DNA of 64,000 nt. Source: Halomarina rubra. Lineage in GTDB: Archaea; Halobacteriota; Halobacteria; Halobacteriales; Haloarculaceae. Shown piece by piece: positions 6,545 through 45,692 of this stretch (the stretch's first letter is position 1; the number at the start of each line of letters is the position of its first letter). Both the position numbers and the translations under genes were made by a program. The stretch covers positions 674,878 through 738,877 of the forward strand of contig NZ_JALXFV010000003.1 of the NCBI RefSeq assembly GCF_023699475.1, given 5' to 3'. The notes beneath the pieces are model-generated. The model saw only the letters and a list, made by a program, of their open reading frames with translations. It did no database searches and was not told the origin of the DNA.

Positions 6545-6955
6545 ATGGCAGACACCGACGCGTCGTGGTTCTCGCTCAAGCGGTTCGCCGTCGCCCTCCT
6601 CTCGGTCGGCACCGGGGCCGCCGTCGGCGTCGAGTTCGTCCCGATGGTCGGCCTCTACGTCGGCACGCTCGCGGGCGGGTTCGCCGCCGGCCTCGCCTTC
6701 GAGCGTCGCCCCCTCCTGGAGTCGGGCCTCGCGGGCCTGTTCGCCGGGATGGGCGTCCTCCTCGTCTCGAAACTCGTCGGCGGGAACATCATCGAAGCCA
6801 TCCTCGGCCTCATCGCACTCCAGCCACAACTCCTCGTGATATCGGCGGCGCTCAGCTTCACCACGGGGATGCTCGGGGCGTACTTCGGCAACGACCTCCG
6901 CGACGGCCTCACCCGCCCCATCGACGAGTCCGGCATCGGGACGGGCGACCCGTAG
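6545..6955 (+). CDS. Glycine-rich integral membrane protein, unknown function
   Basis: 136 aa from ATG 6545 (GACTATGGCAG). About four hydrophobic helices are rich in Gly/Ala (GTGAAVGVEF, GTLAGGFAAGLAF, GLFAGMGVLLVSKL, ALSFTTGMLGAYFG), followed by a short acidic C-terminus. A longer frame upstream exists but reads through the intergenic region. Similar four-helix proteins are widespread in haloarchaea without assigned function. Confidence 0.65.
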   Translation: MADTDASWFSLKRFAVALLSVGTGAAVGVEFVPMVGLYVGTLAGGFAAGLAFERRPLLESGLAGLFAGMGVLLVSKLVGGNIIEAILGLIALQPQLLVISAALSFTTGMLGAYFGNDLRDGLTRPIDESGIGTGDP

Positions 6956-7051
6956 CACGACGACGAACGACCTCGACTCCTCATCCGTCCACGATTCCGT
7001 CACCGCCGAGCCGTTCAAAAACTTAACACGTCCGACCGCTATCGAACGTAC

Positions 7052-8281
7052 ATGTCGAATCCGGAGTGGTCCCGCCGGGACGTACTGAAGACCCTCGGAA
7101 CCGGTGCGGTCGGGGTCGGCCTCGGGGCGGCCGTCCTCGACCGGATGGAGCGGTACATCGTCGGGGCGCACGACCCCGACGCCGTCGCCGCCGCGAGCAC
7201 GATTTCGGACGTTCACGAGGAGCGCATCGACCTCACCGGCCACACGCCGCTGACGCTCGTCGTCGGTGCGTACTCCGACGCCGGCCGCCGGTCGTTGCTC
7301 ACCCGCAACGACGTCGCGTTCGTCCAACCCGACCGGACGCTGTCGCTGTTCTCGCCGGCCGGTGGTCGCGCGGTGCGTGATGCGCCCGACCAGGTCCTCC
7401 CGTGGGGCGTCGACCGCGTCGACGCCGACGTCGCCCACGACGAGGGAGCGACGGGTGCGGGCGTCGACGTCGCCGTCGTCGACGGCGGCATCGCCGCCGA
7501 CCACCCCGACCTGCGAGCGGCCCTCGCCGACCCGAGCGTCGAGGGCAACCACCGTGCATGGGTCGACTGCGAGGGCGAGAACTGTCCGTACCCGTGGGCC
7601 GACGACGGCGACCACGGGACGCACGTCGCGGGGACCGTCGCGGCCGCCGAGGACGGCGGCGTCGTCGGTGTCGCTCCCGAGGCGACGCTCCACGCGCTGA
7701 AGGTGTGTAGCGCGGGCGGTGGCTGTCGCACCTCGGACATCGTCGCCGCCATCCGCCACGCCGCCGACCAGGGGTGGGACGTGGTGAACCTCAGTCTCGG
7801 GTCGCCCGCGGCGTCGCCGGCGCTCGAAGCCGCCGGCCAGTACGCCCGTGCGGCGGGCGTCGTTCTCGTCGCGGCCGCAGGCAACCGCGGCCAGCCCGAC
7901 TCGGTGGGCTACCCGGCGGCCTACGACGAGTTCCTCGCCGTCGCCGCGACGACCATCGACGACGAGGTGGCCGCCTTCTCCTCGCGGGGCCCGGAGGTCG
8001 ACGTCGCCGCTCCCGGCGAGGGCGTCTGCTCGGCGGTCGGTGGGGGGCACGACGTGCTTGACGGGACGTCGATGGCCGCACCCCACGTCACCGGTGCCGC
8101 GGCGCAGTTGCTCGCCGCCGGCGTCTCGCCCGACGAGGTCCGCGACCGACTGCTCGCCACCGCCGAGGACCTCGGCGCGTCCGACACGGCGCAGGGGGCC
8201 GGTCTCCTCGACGTCGCCGCGGCGCTCGACTACGACTCGGGGGACGACGGGACGGGCGACGGAACGGGCTGTCCGGCCTGA
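7052..8281 (+). CDS. Tat-exported subtilisin-like serine protease (S8)
   Basis: 409 aa. The Tat signal is RRDVLKTLGTGAVGVGLG (about 8-25). An inhibitor-like propeptide spans about 45-105. The catalytic domain shows Asp144 (AVVDGGI), His188 (GDHGTHVAGT), the oxyanion Asn278 (AAAGNRG) and Ser340 (DGTSMAAPH), so the triad is complete. DGG replaces the more usual D-S/T-G. Cysteines at 173, 178, 219 and 225 may form disulfides. The C-terminus is a short Asp/Gly/Thr tail, without the PKD domain of classic halolysins. Likely a secreted, salt-adapted protease. Confidence 0.92.
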   Translation: MSNPEWSRRDVLKTLGTGAVGVGLGAAVLDRMERYIVGAHDPDAVAAASTISDVHEERIDLTGHTPLTLVVGAYSDAGRRSLLTRNDVAFVQPDRTLSLFSPAGGRAVRDAPDQVLPWGVDRVDADVAHDEGATGAGVDVAVVDGGIAADHPDLRAALADPSVEGNHRAWVDCEGENCPYPWADDGDHGTHVAGTVAAAEDGGVVGVAPEATLHALKVCSAGGGCRTSDIVAAIRHAADQGWDVVNLSLGSPAASPALEAAGQYARAAGVVLVAAAGNRGQPDSVGYPAAYDEFLAVAATTIDDEVAAFSSRGPEVDVAAPGEGVCSAVGGGHDVLDGTSMAAPHVTGAAAQLLAAGVSPDEVRDRLLATAEDLGASDTAQGAGLLDVAAALDYDSGDDGTGDGTGCPA

Positions 8282-39043: not shown

Positions 39044-39829
39044 TCAGGAGTGCTCGTCGAGGCCATAGCTCGTCTCGACGAGTCCTCGAAGTCGGTCGGT
39101 GAACCGTGCTGCGGGTGCGCCGTCGACCACGTCGTGGTCGAAGCTGACGGTGACGCTCAGCTTCTCTTGGGGGACGATTTCGCCGTCGACGACGGTCGGT
39201 TTGGTCGCGATACCACCGACGATTACTTGGCATGTGTAGTTGCTCGGACTGACACCCCATCCACTGCCGTCACCGAACATCCCCACGGACGTGACGGCGA
39301 CCGTTCCCGCCAGTCGTTTCCAATGAACGGGAGACACCTGTGGGAGTCGCCAGATTTGTCGCCGAACGATGCCGGGAAGCCGGAGTCCGAGCGACGCGAG
39401 TGACGAGTGGCGGCTCTCGGCTGGACTGGTCTGGACGCGCCGAATCTCCTCGTGTATCGATACGACCGACCGTCGATTCGCCCGCCTGACGACGTGCGGG
39501 ATGGCCAGTTTCTCCCCGTCGACGTGCTTCTCGACGAGCACGTTCACGTCGACGTCGTCGAACCTGACGACGCGACCTCGCCAGTCGTGGTACGCGTTGA
39601 CGTCCGGATGGTCGTCGATGGCCCGACCCAGACAGCCGACGAGAAACGCCGTGAACGAGAGCCGTTCGCCCGTCTCTTCGAATCGGTTCTGGATCACCTC
39701 CCGTGCGTCGGTCACGTCAAACTCGACGAGGCCGTAGACGACACTCCGCTGCCCGGCGATACGCATGTAGTCGGCGGTCGCCCGACGCTGGAGTGGCCTC
39801 GGTTCGGGTGACTCGTCCTCGGGATTCAT
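39044..39829 (-). CDS. Stand-alone 2-oxoacid dehydrogenase E2-type acyltransferase domain
   Basis: 261 aa with no lipoyl or subunit-binding domain. It begins near the catalytic core (RRATADYMRIAGQRSVVYGLVEFDV) and has FTAFLVGCLGRAIDDHPDVNAY. Its active-site motif SFDHDVVDGAPAARF has DHD in place of the usual DHR, but keeps His and the DG needed for CoA acyl transfer. Such domains may act as acyltransferases independent of the complex. A full E2 lies 4 kb away (44088-45692). It sits 49 bases downstream of the minus-strand membrane gene. Confidence 0.8.
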   Translation of the reverse strand: MNPEDESPEPRPLQRRATADYMRIAGQRSVVYGLVEFDVTDAREVIQNRFEETGERLSFTAFLVGCLGRAIDDHPDVNAYHDWRGRVVRFDDVDVNVLVEKHVDGEKLAIPHVVRRANRRSVVSIHEEIRRVQTSPAESRHSSLASLGLRLPGIVRRQIWRLPQVSPVHWKRLAGTVAVTSVGMFGDGSGWGVSPSNYTCQVIVGGIATKPTVVDGEIVPQEKLSVTVSFDHDVVDGAPAARFTDRLRGLVETSYGLDEHS

Positions 39830-40787: not shown

Positions 40788-40982
40788 CGGCCACTTCCGT
40801 ATCGAGTGGTCGGTTCGCTGTTCATGCTCGACTGTATACTATGTCAGAAGATGCATACTTCGACAGTTCTCGCGTAACGACACTCAGGATGATTCGGTTA
40901 TCGCGGTCGGGAGCGGCGGTTCAGCGAATATGTATTCTGATAGTCTAGTTGAGATACTCGGTCATGTGTTCTTAAATGAATG

Positions 40983-40989
40983 TTTATTA
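40983..40989 (+). promoter_or_regulatory. TATA-like box of the E1alpha operon
   Basis: TTTATTA, 26 bases before ATG 41015, in an AT-rich stretch. Spacing predicts transcription starting at or just before the start codon, i.e. a leaderless mRNA. This supports ATG 41015 over 40976, which lies inside the promoter. Confidence 0.6.
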
Positions 40990-41014
40990 CATACCACTTG
41001 CAAGGGCGTGTTGT

Positions 41015-42049
41015 ATGGTGACAATAGACATAAAGGCGGAGTCGGGGCAAAGAGAGATGCTCCGTCGGATGCTGACGATTCGGGCGTTCGACACGAGAGC
41101 GGGTGAGTTGTTCGCAGACGGTGAACTTCCCGGGTTCGTCCACCTGTACATTGGTGAGGAGGCGGTCGGCGTCGGAGCCATCTCGGCGCTCGAACCGGAC
41201 GACTACATCACGAGTACACATCGCGGACACGGTCACTGCATCGCGAAGGGACTCGACACCTACCAGATGATGGCCGAACTGTACGGCAAGCGCGACGGCT
41301 ACTGCAACGGCAAAGGCGGGTCGATGCACATCGCCGACGTCGACGCCGGGATGCTCGGTGCGAACGGTATCGTCGGGGCCGGCCCACCACTCGCGACGGG
41401 TGCAGCACTGACCGCTTCGTACAAGGACGAAGACCGGGTCGCCCTGGCGTTCTTCGGCGACGGGGCGGTCGCACAGGGGCAGGTCCACGAGGGCATCAAT
41501 CTCGCCGCGACGTGGGACCTTCCGGCAATCTTCGTCGTCGAGAACAACCACTTCGGAGAGGCGACACCCGTCGAGAACCAGCACAACGTCGAACACCTCT
41601 CGGCGACCGCCGAGGCGTACAACATCCCTGGATTCACCGTCGATGGGATGGACGTGACTGCCGTCTACGAAGCCGTCGAGGAAGCCAGAGCGCGCGCAGC
41701 AGCAGGCGACGGTCCGACGTTCATCGAAGCGGACACCTACCGGTACAAGGGGCACTTCGAGGGTGACCACGAACCGTACCGGACGAAAGACGACATCGAC
41801 GACGCTCGCGAGCGTGATGCCATCGACCGGTTCAAGACACGGCTCGTCGACGCCGGGGTCATCACTGACGCGGAGTTCGACGACCTCGAAGCGGAGGTAG
41901 AGGCCGAAATCGACGAGGCGACCGAGCGGGCACAGGACGCCGAGTACCCCGACCCGAGTGAAGCGTACGAGGACATGTTCGGCGCACACGTCCCCGAGAT
42001 AGAGGAGTTCGCGGCACGGGTCCGCACCGACGGCGGTGAGCGACAATGA
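41015..42049 (+). CDS. acoA: Acetoin/2-oxoacid dehydrogenase E1 subunit alpha
   Basis: 344 aa. TPP-binding features: GFVHLYIGEEAVGVGAISAL, STHRGHGHCIAKG, GKGGSMHIAD and GDGAVAQGQVHEGINLAATW ending ENNHFGEATP (the GDG...N motif for Mg-TPP). C-terminal FIEADTYRYKGHFEGD is typical. This enzyme decarboxylates a 2-oxoacid or cleaves acetoin on TPP. It overlaps the E1beta gene by four bases and is followed by AcoX, arguing for an acetoin-type complex, although a branched-chain or pyruvate substrate is not excluded. Confidence 0.85.
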   Translation: MVTIDIKAESGQREMLRRMLTIRAFDTRAGELFADGELPGFVHLYIGEEAVGVGAISALEPDDYITSTHRGHGHCIAKGLDTYQMMAELYGKRDGYCNGKGGSMHIADVDAGMLGANGIVGAGPPLATGAALTASYKDEDRVALAFFGDGAVAQGQVHEGINLAATWDLPAIFVVENNHFGEATPVENQHNVEHLSATAEAYNIPGFTVDGMDVTAVYEAVEEARARAAAGDGPTFIEADTYRYKGHFEGDHEPYRTKDDIDDARERDAIDRFKTRLVDAGVITDAEFDDLEAEVEAEIDEATERAQDAEYPDPSEAYEDMFGAHVPEIEEFAARVRTDGGERQ

Positions 42050-43056
42050 GTACCGAGACAGGAACCGGACAGGCAGTATCGGCGACAGAGACGATGACGA
42101 TTCGTGAGGCGATTCGCGAGGCCCTCCGCGAGGAGTTAGCCCGCGACGAAGACGCCTTCCTCATGGGCGAGGATATCGGGACGTTCGGCGGTGTCCTCTC
42201 GGTGACTGGCGACCTCGTCGACGACTTCGGCGAGGAGCGCGTCCGTGATACACCCATCAGCGAGGCCGGATTCATGGGTGCAGCGGTCGGTGCTGCGGCG
42301 ACTGGGACCCGCCCCATCGTCGAGATCATGTTCTCGGATTTCCTCGGCGTCTGTGCCGAGCAGATTCTCAACCAGATGGCGAAGAACCGCTACATGTTCG
42401 GCGGGAAAGCCGAGATGCCGGTGACGGTTCGGACCACCGAGGGCGGTGGGATGGGTGCCGCCAGCCAGCACTCCGGGACCATCCACACGTGGTTCGCCCA
42501 CCTCCCCGGTGTCATGGCGGTCACCCCAGGGTCCGCTCGTGCGGCGAAAGGGTTGTTGAAGTCGGCCATCCGGTCGGACGACCCTGTGTTCTTCTTCGAG
42601 AACAAGGACATCTACGAGCAGGAAGGTGAGGTCCCCACCGACGAAGACTACACCATCCCGCTTGGCCAGGCGAGCGTCGAACGCGAGGGTGACGATGTCA
42701 CCGTCGTCGCGACCCAGCGCTGTGTCGGTGAGTCTCTCGACCTCGCCGAGGAACTCGCGGGTGAGACGAGCGTCGAGGTCATCGACCTCCAGTCGCTCTA
42801 CCCGATGGACACCGAGACGCTCCTCGAGAGCGTCGAAAAGACGGGGCGACTCATCGTCGCTGACGAGAGTCCACTCTCGTACGGCACGCACGCCGAAGTC
42901 GTCGCACGGGTCCAAGAGCGGGGCTTCTTCAGCCTCGATGCGCCTATCCAGCGCGTCGGCGTGCCGGATACGCACATCCCGTTCAGCCCGGCACTCGAAC
43001 GCGAAGTGATGCCCGACGCCGACGGAATTCAGGCAGCAATCGACCGCGTGGTCTGA
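42046..43056 (+). CDS. acoB: Acetoin/2-oxoacid dehydrogenase E1 subunit beta
   Basis: 336 aa. TIREAIREALREELARDEDAFLMGEDIG, FMGAAVGAAATGTRPIVEIMFSDF, MPVTVRTTEGGGMGAASQHSG and the C-terminal transketolase domain (VTVVATQRCVGESLDLAEEL, VIDLQSLYPMD) are classic for E1beta. It pairs with E1alpha as an alpha2beta2 heterotetramer, with TPP sitting between subunits. The ATGA overlap suggests stoichiometric expression. Confidence 0.9.
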   Translation: MSTETGTGQAVSATETMTIREAIREALREELARDEDAFLMGEDIGTFGGVLSVTGDLVDDFGEERVRDTPISEAGFMGAAVGAAATGTRPIVEIMFSDFLGVCAEQILNQMAKNRYMFGGKAEMPVTVRTTEGGGMGAASQHSGTIHTWFAHLPGVMAVTPGSARAAKGLLKSAIRSDDPVFFFENKDIYEQEGEVPTDEDYTIPLGQASVEREGDDVTVVATQRCVGESLDLAEELAGETSVEVIDLQSLYPMDTETLLESVEKTGRLIVADESPLSYGTHAEVVARVQERGFFSLDAPIQRVGVPDTHIPFSPALEREVMPDADGIQAAIDRVV

Positions 43057-44061
43057 GTGGGGGCGACGGTCGGCCTCATCGTCAACCCGGCGGCAGGGCG
43101 CGACATTCGCCGACTCGTCGGCGGTGCGAGCGTCAGCGACGCCTACAGCAAACGCCGAACGGCACAGTGCGTCCTCGCAGGTGTGACGCTCAGCGACGAC
43201 GACGTCGACGTGCTCGTGATGCCCGACCGCGGCAGTCTCGGGCAACGCATCGTCGACGAGGCACCCGACGACCTCTCGGTCGGTACGCTCGACATGCCGG
43301 TCGGTGGCGACCGTGAGGACACACGCCGCGCCGCAGGGCGATTCGAACAGGAGGCGGATGCGGTCGTCGTCCTTGGTGGGGACGGGACCAATCGTGACGT
43401 TGCTCACACGATCGGTGACGTCCCTGTCGTGAGCCTCTCGACGGGGACGAACAACGTCGTGCCGAGTGCGGTCGACGGCACCGTCGCTGGTGGGGCCGCC
43501 GCACTCGTCGCGACCGGCGTCGTCCCCGCCGAGGAGGTGACGACGCGTCACGGGATGGTCGAAGCAGTCGCCGAGACGCCGACCGGTACGCAGCACCTTC
43601 GGGGGTTGGCGACGCTCGGCGTCATCGACCAAGCGTTCGTCGGGACGCGAGCACTTCTCGATGCGAGCACCATCCTCGGCGGTGTCGTGTCCAGAGCCTC
43701 ACCGACCGAAATCGGCCTCTCCGGTATCGCTGGTGGACTGACGCTCCATTCGATGGACCAACCAGGTGGTGTTGGATTCCGTGTCGGACCGGTCGAATCC
43801 ACCGACCAGCACGTCCGTGCCGTCACTGTACCCGGTGTCGTCGAGCGCGTCGGTATCGGAGAGTGGCGACAGCTCGGCGACGGGGAGTCACTGTCGTTCG
43901 ATATCGACCGTGGTGTCCTGTCGGTCGACGGTGAACGAGAACTCGAACTGCGAGACGCCAGTATCGACATCCACCCGGTCGCTGACGGCCCCTCCATCGT
44001 CGATGTCGAGGCGACCTATCGGGCAGCCACGGAGCAAGACTTCTTCTCGAGTACTCGCTGA
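43057..44061 (+). CDS. acoX: AcoX / ATP-NAD-kinase-like protein
   Basis: 334 aa from GTG 43057 immediately after the E1beta stop. VGLIVNPAAGRDIRRLVGGASV and VVVLGGDGTNRDVAH (GGDG nucleotide-binding motif) match the NAD-kinase/AcoX superfamily. AcoX proteins occur with acetoin dehydrogenase genes in bacteria and have unknown function, perhaps sugar- or nucleotide-phosphate related. Its tight operon location is the main argument that this is an acetoin-type cluster. It ends 26 bases from the convergent E2 gene. Confidence 0.82.
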   Translation: MGATVGLIVNPAAGRDIRRLVGGASVSDAYSKRRTAQCVLAGVTLSDDDVDVLVMPDRGSLGQRIVDEAPDDLSVGTLDMPVGGDREDTRRAAGRFEQEADAVVVLGGDGTNRDVAHTIGDVPVVSLSTGTNNVVPSAVDGTVAGGAAALVATGVVPAEEVTTRHGMVEAVAETPTGTQHLRGLATLGVIDQAFVGTRALLDASTILGGVVSRASPTEIGLSGIAGGLTLHSMDQPGGVGFRVGPVESTDQHVRAVTVPGVVERVGIGEWRQLGDGESLSFDIDRGVLSVDGERELELRDASIDIHPVADGPSIVDVEATYRAATEQDFFSSTR

Positions 44062-44087: not shown

Positions 44088-45692
44088 TCAGCGTGCACTC
44101 GCCTCGACAACGAGCGGCCACGGGTCTTCGACGTGTGTGACCAGCGTCTGCATGAAGCGAGCGGCGTCTGCCCCGTCGACGAAGCGGTGGTCGAACGAGA
44201 GGTCGAAGCCGATGCGCTTCTCGACGGTCGGCTCACCGTCCTCACCCGGAACGACATCGTCTGCGATGGCGTCGACACCGAGGATGGCGACCTGTGGTGG
44301 GTTGATGATGGGGTCGAACGACTCGACGCCCAGTCCACCGAGGTTCGAGATGGTGAACGTCCCACCGGTGAGGTCGCTCATCGTGTGTTCACCCGCGAGC
44401 GCCCGGTCGGTCACAGCACGGCGTTCCTCGGTTACTTCCGATAGCGAGAGTTGGTCGACCGTCCGGACCACCGGAGCCACGAGTCCGGCGTCGATATCGA
44501 CGGCGACGCAGATGTTGTGTTCCTCGTGGAGTTGGTGGACCTTGTCTTCGGCCGTCGCGTTGAACTCGGGGTGGGCGTCGAGTGTCGCCGAGACGGCGAG
44601 CAACAGTACGTCGTTCACGGAGACGGCGGCGTCGAGACCAGCCTTCGCCGCCTTCGCGGCCGCGAGGAGGTCGGCTGCCGCCGCAGTTCGGTGGATGGTG
44701 ACGTGGACGGCGTTCTGGTAGCTCTGCCCGAGTCGGTTGGCGATGGTCCGACGCATGCTCCCGAGTGGCCGTTCCTCGTCACGGGTTCCCGGTGGTTCTG
44801 TGTGCTCGGTCGCCCGCTTGTCGGTCGAAGCGGCGACGCCGTCGTCGGCTGCCCGAACGTCCGGTTCGGTGATCGCCCCCCCGACACCCGTTCCGTCGAC
44901 GGACTCGATGTCGACACCGAGTTCGCGTGCAAGGCGACGAACGCGTGGTGAGGCGAACACTCGCTCCTGGCCTTGGCCCGTAGCTGTCGACGCTGTCTCT
45001 GACTCGCCTGTCGACGGTGCCGGTGACGCCGGCTCACTCTCGACTGTGTTCGCAGCGGCCTCGACGTCATCGGCCGTCACTGTTCCCTGTGGGCCCGTTC
45101 CCTCGACCGTCGAGAGGTCGACTTCCAACTCTTCTGCCCGGCGCTTGGCTCGCGGGCTCGCCTTGACCGACCGCTCGCTTGCAGTCTCCTCGTTGGCGGC
45201 TGCAGCGGCCTCGTCGACGTCGTCGGCCGTCACGGCCCCCTGTGGACCGGTGCCTTCGACTGTCGCGAGGTCGATGTCCACTTCCTCTGCTCGCCGCTTG
45301 GCTCGGGGAGTCGCCTTCACGTCGACTTGCGCTACAGCGGACTTCCCGTTCCCCGAGACACTCGTGGTCTCGGTTGGCTCGTCGGCTACCGTCTCGGTGG
45401 CCGTATTATTCGCTTCGACCCCTGTCTCGGCTAACAAGTCCGAGACGTCTTCGTCGGGAGCCCCGACGATTGCCACTGCACCTCCCGGTCCCGTGCTGTC
45501 ACCGACGTTGAGGAGTCGCTCGTGGATGATACCGTCTTCACGGACGGTGATTTCGCCGGTCGTCTTCTCGGATTCGATCTCGGCGACGACCTCTCCCTCG
45601 GTGACCTCGTCCCCTTCGTCGACGAACCACTCGACGATCGTCCCTTGGTCCATGTCCATCCCAAGCTTCGGCATCTTGACGATGTATGACAT
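44088..45692 (-). CDS. Dihydrolipoamide acyltransferase (E2) with three tandem PSBDs
   Basis: 534 aa. A lipoyl domain (1-78) has Lys43 in IESEKTTGE. Three subunit-binding domains follow: 126-162 (KATPRAKRRAEEVDIDL), 176-213 (KASPRAKRRAEELEVDL) and 246-282 (FASPRVRRLARELGVDI), each ending in a G-T-G-x-x-G-x(V/I)T DV pattern. The catalytic domain (about 305-534) has SFDHRFVDGADAARF. Linkers are acidic and Glu/Thr-rich. Most E2s have one PSBD. The gene converges on acoX; TATA-like ACTTATCG lies about 27 bases before the start. No E3 gene is in the window. Confidence 0.92.
   Translation of the reverse strand: MSYIVKMPKLGMDMDQGTIVEWFVDEGDEVTEGEVVAEIESEKTTGEITVREDGIIHERLLNVGDSTGPGGAVAIVGAPDEDVSDLLAETGVEANNTATETVADEPTETTSVSGNGKSAVAQVDVKATPRAKRRAEEVDIDLATVEGTGPQGAVTADDVDEAAAAANEETASERSVKASPRAKRRAEELEVDLSTVEGTGPQGTVTADDVEAAANTVESEPASPAPSTGESETASTATGQGQERVFASPRVRRLARELGVDIESVDGTGVGGAITEPDVRAADDGVAASTDKRATEHTEPPGTRDEERPLGSMRRTIANRLGQSYQNAVHVTIHRTAAAADLLAAAKAAKAGLDAAVSVNDVLLLAVSATLDAHPEFNATAEDKVHQLHEEHNICVAVDIDAGLVAPVVRTVDQLSLSEVTEERRAVTDRALAGEHTMSDLTGGTFTISNLGGLGVESFDPIINPPQVAILGVDAIADDVVPGEDGEPTVEKRIGFDLSFDHRFVDGADAARFMQTLVTHVEDPWPLVVEASAR

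Follow-up and report, generated by a model that had tools for sequence, protein, structure and literature searches.

Three tandem peripheral subunit-binding domains of two subtypes in a haloarchaeal E2 acyltransferase

The E2 protein encoded in the stretch of Halomarina rubra DNA analysed here (64,000 nucleotides, positions 674,878 to 738,877 of contig C10, in the following the window) combines one lipoyl domain and one catalytic domain with three peripheral subunit-binding domains (PSBDs), the first two belonging to one subtype (K) and the third to the canonical one (F). The two-plus-one arrangement, kept in 14 haloarchaeal loci, suggests that the partner enzymes differ between the dock subtypes, and a split of duties between the subtypes is favoured over three equal docks. 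In the form considered here, to which a probability of about 40% is given, the K copies would dock the E1 encoded in the same gene cluster and the F copy the E3 shared by the genome.

Domain layout of the E2 protein and its gene cluster

The features of the E2 gene and of the genes beside it are the following.

44088..45692 (-), E2 dihydrolipoyl acyltransferase, 534 aa, lipoyl-PSBD(K)-PSBD(K)-PSBD(F)-catalytic (ORF and Pfam)
45471..45680 (-), lipoyl domain (Biotin_lipoyl), residues 5-74 (PF00364, 50 bits)
45213..45320 (-), PSBD copy 1, K subtype, residues 125-160, VKATPRAKRRAEEVDIDLATVEGTGPQGAVTADDVD (PF02817, 48.8 bits, and modelled PSBD fold)
45060..45167 (-), PSBD copy 2, K subtype, residues 176-211, VKASPRAKRRAEELEVDLSTVEGTGPQGTVTADDVE (PF02817, 55.3 bits, and modelled PSBD fold)
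44853..44960 (-), PSBD copy 3, F (canonical) subtype, residues 245-280, VFASPRVRRLARELGVDIESVDGTGVGGAITEPDVR (PF02817, 57.6 bits, and modelled PSBD fold)
44112..44780 (-), acyltransferase catalytic domain (2-oxoacid_dh), residues 305-527, SFDHRFVDG (PF00198, 219 bits, and translation)
40976..42049 (+), E1 alpha subunit, same cluster as E2 (PF00676, 320 bits, and conserved neighbour)
42046..43056 (+), E1 beta subunit, same cluster as E2 (PF02779 and PF02780, conserved neighbour)
43057..44061 (+), NAD-kinase-fold protein, AcoX-like (PF01513, 42 bits, and conserved neighbour)

The architecture of the E2 protein, with three PSBDs after a single lipoyl domain as given in a preliminary description of the window, is confirmed. 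Each copy exceeds the E3_binding (PF02817) cut-off of 23.7 bits, and the combined E value of 9e-40, along with the fold model, rules out a chance similarity. The lipoylatable lysine is found in the motif EIESEKT of the translated lipoyl domain, and the catalytic DHxxxDG motif is intact. By its domains the protein is a 2-oxoacid dehydrogenase-type acyltransferase, for which catalytic activity and a multimeric core are predicted.

Whether the copies have the PSBD fold, a point on which the preliminary description had made its reading depend, was addressed by modelling the linker region (193 residues) with AlphaFold2 from 14 aligned orthologues. The helix, turn, loop and helix pattern appears three times, in blocks with pLDDT values of approximately 88-94, confidence being low at both ends and in the linker preceding copy 3, and each copy models as a PSBD with the trait of the family (approx. 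36 residues with two parallel helices, a turn and a loop). In a Foldseek comparison with the PDB the top 36 matches to the linker model are all E2 or PSBD chains, and 1w85 chain I fits at 0.6 Å over 39 columns. Geobacillus stearothermophilus E2p (1w3d, 1w85, 1ebd) shares with the window E2 the lipoyl-PSBD-catalytic order and the PSBD fold; however, one PSBD serves E1 or E3 in the former, whereas the latter has three, of two subtypes.

The cluster order E1 alpha, E1 beta, NAD-kinase-like (AcoX-like) gene and convergent E2 is conserved; the name AcoX is given by context and fold family rather than by a curated model. The window E2 is predicted to form the core of a haloarchaeal complex of the 2-oxoacid or acetoin dehydrogenase type. 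In bacterial acetoin dehydrogenase systems (AcoA/AcoB/AcoC with AcoX), E1 alpha, E1 beta, E2 and NAD-kinase-like genes are grouped in the same way, but the window cluster differs from them in its E2 gene convergent to E1, its three PSBDs and the absence of a linked E3. A pyruvate dehydrogenase was considered and rejected with the NCBIfam equivalogs, the scores falling below the cut-offs for E2 (312 versus 445, TIGR01349), E1 alpha (365 versus 394, TIGR03182) and E1 beta (329 versus 454, NF008854). Relatives of acetoin dehydrogenase E1 occur in Haloferax, with no substrate assigned, and the literature names no substrate for most haloarchaeal homologues (PMC8305020). The window also encodes, close to the E1 genes (39044-39829, minus strand), a 261-aa free-standing E2 catalytic domain with the motif SFDHDVVDG and without lipoyl domain or PSBD, which is only a distant relative of the three-PSBD protein.

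The absence of a nearby E3 gene, already pointed out in the preliminary description, holds for the whole window, in which no Pyr_redox_dim gene, and hence no linked AcoL of the acetoin type, was found; likewise, the genes flanking the other AcoX clusters of F type include no E3. Four Pyr_redox_dim genes are present elsewhere in the genome. The one at C10:423737, which stands alone on the contig that holds the E2 gene, approximately 295 kb from it, looks by its sequence like a dihydrolipoyl dehydrogenase and is the best E3 candidate of the genome, and the other three, by reading only, look like different flavoenzymes.

K and F subtypes and the distribution of multi-PSBD E2 proteins

Copies 1 and 2 share 81% of their residues and 80% of their nucleotides, in agreement with the duplication previously proposed for them. 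Copy 3, which had been regarded as more diverged but part of one stepwise series with them, is only 47-53% identical to copies 1 and 2 and instead belongs to the canonical subtype, with 67% identity to PSBD1 of the housekeeping E2 encoded in this genome, so that its interpretation as a decayed copy was also rejected. The same relation is found for the F copies of AcoX clusters (67% identity to housekeeping PSBD1, 50% to K copies), F or K being assigned by the higher score of two small HMMs. The mean K1-K2 identity is 84% inside a gene versus 69-71% for K copies between genomes, and K1 equals K2 in protein sequence in some genomes (G132, G140, G398 and G405), a likeness that results from concerted evolution or repeated duplication. 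The stepwise series is therefore limited to copies 1 and 2.

The subtypes also differ at the positions of B. stearothermophilus R135, R139 and R156, the basic PSBD residues in contact with E1 and E3. In the window E2 these positions hold R, R and A in copy 3, and K, E, A and K, E, T in copies 1 and 2. Arg is present at both the R135 and R139 positions of the F copy in 14/14 loci, the residue table for F being made of the 12 F copies of full length. Among the 28 K copies of the 14 loci, the R135 position is K, E or R, the R139 position is E or D in 26 and the R156 position is A, S or T in all; the PSBD core and the glycines are almost invariant. Glu at the R139 position is likewise found in the single-PSBD bacterial relatives L041, L044 and L052, so that this residue alone cannot exclude E3 binding.

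The survey of haloarchaeal E2 proteins for PSBD number that had been suggested was carried out with E2 relatives from family-wide and class-wide searches and from plasmid records, recounted with one PSBD HMM. Besides the window, 13 loci, all haloarchaeal, carry three PSBDs, in the same genus (G056), in Halococcus (L039), in Haladaptatus (L133) and in other haloarchaeal families (f3, f4, f6, f8), with a constant K-K-F order in all 14, and the view of the three-PSBD E2 as a one-off in its source genome was rejected. Close relatives of the window E2 show K-F, K-K or a single K, so that the PSBD number varies from one to three, and K-F and K-K-F occur inside one genus.

That a single PSBD is usual, as initially stated, is correct for the bacterial relatives compared, with one PSBD each, in line with the bacterial norm (PMC6270654), but not for haloarchaea. 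In their housekeeping E2, a conserved motif (TLATPATRRLARELDVDIDAVPTDETRDGEPYVDEAAVRAFAE in L022) comes after PSBD1; it gives a partial PSBD HMM match and in a model folds as a second PSBD, the loop of which is longer. This diverged PSBD-like domain is seen in L110:4080-5624 and in L009-L038, and haloarchaeal E2 proteins therefore commonly have more than one PSBD. The first of these genes encodes the housekeeping PDH-type E2 of the same genome, which resembles the window E2 in its F-type PSBD1 and in the presence of a second PSBD-like domain, and differs from it in the divergence and longer loop of the latter, the whole proteins being approximately 30% identical.

In the tree, the E2 proteins of the window and of G056 group with K-K-F proteins of other families, and G051, G053, G055 and G057, of the same genus, have K-K or K proteins with OsmC; from the tree, the cluster has likely been transferred between families. 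In the literature searched, which covered few subscription papers, no report of multi-PSBD E2 proteins or of OsmC-E2 fusions was found, and PSBDs and OsmC are both absent from a paper on the archaeal 2-oxoacid dehydrogenases (PMC3904984).

F-type PSBD, linked E3 and C-terminal OsmC

The presence of an F-type PSBD, of an E3 gene in the flanks and of a C-terminal OsmC domain was scored in 83 non-housekeeping lipoyl-bearing E2 proteins, with E3 linkage read inside the fetched flanks, mostly of approximately 7 kb, and OsmC detected by an HMM made from the C-terminal extensions, a detection that Pfam confirmed for seven proteins. F only is found in 29, OsmC only in 32, E3 only in 14 and none of them in 5; combinations are limited to F plus E3 (1) and E3 plus OsmC (2). 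Thus, a linked E3 is absent in 29/30 of the E2 proteins with F and present in 14/19 of the K-only ones without OsmC. The AcoX-type clusters divide into 21 with F (leaving out the housekeeping E2 neighbouring in L224), 26 with OsmC (counting L121, whose OsmC part is in another frame), 4 with neither and none with both, and this mutual exclusion of F and OsmC is a new pattern.

In the catalytic-domain tree, F occurs in two separate clades of the OsmC-rich AcoX group, one of 18 members that includes the window and one of Halococcus, which implies at least two switches in this group rather than dozens. The Fisher p values of 1e-10 and 0.002 ignore relatedness, were obtained with classes set after a partial look at the data and are descriptive; with so few independent changes they overstate the associations.

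Several other arrangements were observed. OsmC (PF02566) lies C-terminally in the same ORF in 34/83 of the scored proteins (L119:5668-9075, L115:5728-7758, L185:6978-8807, L186, L188, L191 and L206, among others). The four AcoX-type E2 proteins with neither F nor OsmC (L107:6035-7348, L109:6574-7917, L130:3320-4771 and L217:7142-8446) have lost the catalytic histidine motif (e.g. YDTRALD) but keep a lipoyl domain and two K-type PSBDs that closely resemble each other; such proteins may act only as scaffolds, in the manner of E3BP. The only scored protein with both F and a linked E3, L098:6324-7805, sits on a very long branch. Two E2 genes look frameshifted, L121:5577-7511 with 6709-7335 (OsmC part in another frame) and L184:6914-8194 with 7090-7857 (catalytic part in another frame), which may be due to sequencing error or decay. 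A split layout, with E1 alpha, E1 beta, a lipoyl ORF and a free-standing E2 catalytic domain, is found in L093, L095, L099, L100, L103, L104, L131, L132, L208, L209, L218 and L219, and no PSBD was found in these clusters. Finally, L116, L118, L128, L101 and L204 belong to another cluster type, with acyl-CoA dehydrogenase neighbours in the annotated members, and their E2 proteins share a conserved C-terminal extension of approximately 105 residues (..ATTKRLLYAACRESAYADTISGLRDPEI..), in which the L204 protein gives no Pfam match.

Docking of E1 and E3

According to the proposed division of labour, the two K domains would hold the E1 encoded in the same cluster, and the F domain, which shares its subtype with housekeeping PSBD1, would hold the shared E3 encoded elsewhere on the contig, so that each E2 chain would be provided with separate, non-competing E1 and E3 sites on one polypeptide. 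The K domains would multiply and be homogenised by unequal crossing-over or gene conversion, and therefore the number of E1 sites could drift. A precedent is given by mammalian PDH, in which E1 and E3 docking is divided between E2p and E3BP (PMC8146983). The logic of separate PSBDs for E1 and E3 is as proposed for the window E2; however, the mammalian PSBDs are on different polypeptides, whereas K and F are on one chain, and their partner binding is predicted. A change of the E1:E3 stoichiometry by the extra docks is possible.

It may well be, although we incline less to it, that all copies bind E1 and E3 interchangeably and that their number drifts nearly neutrally through duplication and loss, with the extra copies adding at most avidity or peripheral-subunit load per chain. 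The range of one to three PSBDs among close relatives, the homogenised or recently duplicated K1 and K2, and the fact that bacterial PSBDs commonly serve both partners agree with such a drift. However, 14/14 loci, from several families, keep both the order K-K-F and the F signature, and F is distributed non-randomly with respect to OsmC and E3 linkage, which neutrality does not predict.

The latter distribution could extend the division of labour to the AcoX-type E2 proteins in general. E3 reoxidises dihydrolipoyl groups. Reduction by lipoylated proteins has been reported for Ohr peroxidases (PMC5962072), which are related to OsmC, so that F, a linked E3 and OsmC may be alternative ways to handle the reduced lipoyl arm. 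In this scheme, which is rather speculative and on balance doubtful, either an F-type PSBD would recruit the shared E3, the K copies of this F form being E1 docks, or a C-terminally fused OsmC would couple dihydrolipoyl to hydroperoxide reduction. Two observations speak against the assignment of E1 to K and of E3 to F: in the K-only proteins with OsmC and without a linked E3, K (or OsmC) must cope without F, and L098 has both F and a linked E3.

Reversed roles, with F docking E1 (or E1 and E3 alike, as it does in the housekeeping E2) and K docking E3 or the AcoX-like protein, are unlikely. K-type PSBDs are present in every E2 with a linked E3 but without F (14 loci), and K domains may therefore bind E3 there; on the other hand, F is the subtype in common with the housekeeping E2, with which the shared partner would be E3 rather than E1, and E2 proteins with a dedicated, linked E3 gene almost never have it. 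Very little probability is assigned to K copies that dock nothing and act as folded spacers, making the arm from the lipoyl domain to the core longer: at the R139 and R156 positions their basic residues are indeed lost, but the PSBD core and glycines are kept, the copies model as folded domains, and some E2 proteins hold K copies only, which must dock E1 or E3 there. An assembly or sequencing artefact, for which the tandem repeat of copies 1 and 2 could be invoked, can be dismissed, as these differ by 20% in DNA, the frame is open, and 13 further loci with this architecture leave no room for an assembly error.

The allocation of E1 and E3 on E2 cores by one small domain type, and the control of their ratio, are long-standing questions, which natural E2 proteins with one, two or three PSBDs of two conserved subtypes in otherwise similar clusters make directly testable. 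With the division of labour proposed here, the F form would merge the roles of E2 and E3BP in one chain with an adjustable number of E1 sites, and the OsmC fusion, if functional, would tie a core of central metabolism to peroxide defence.
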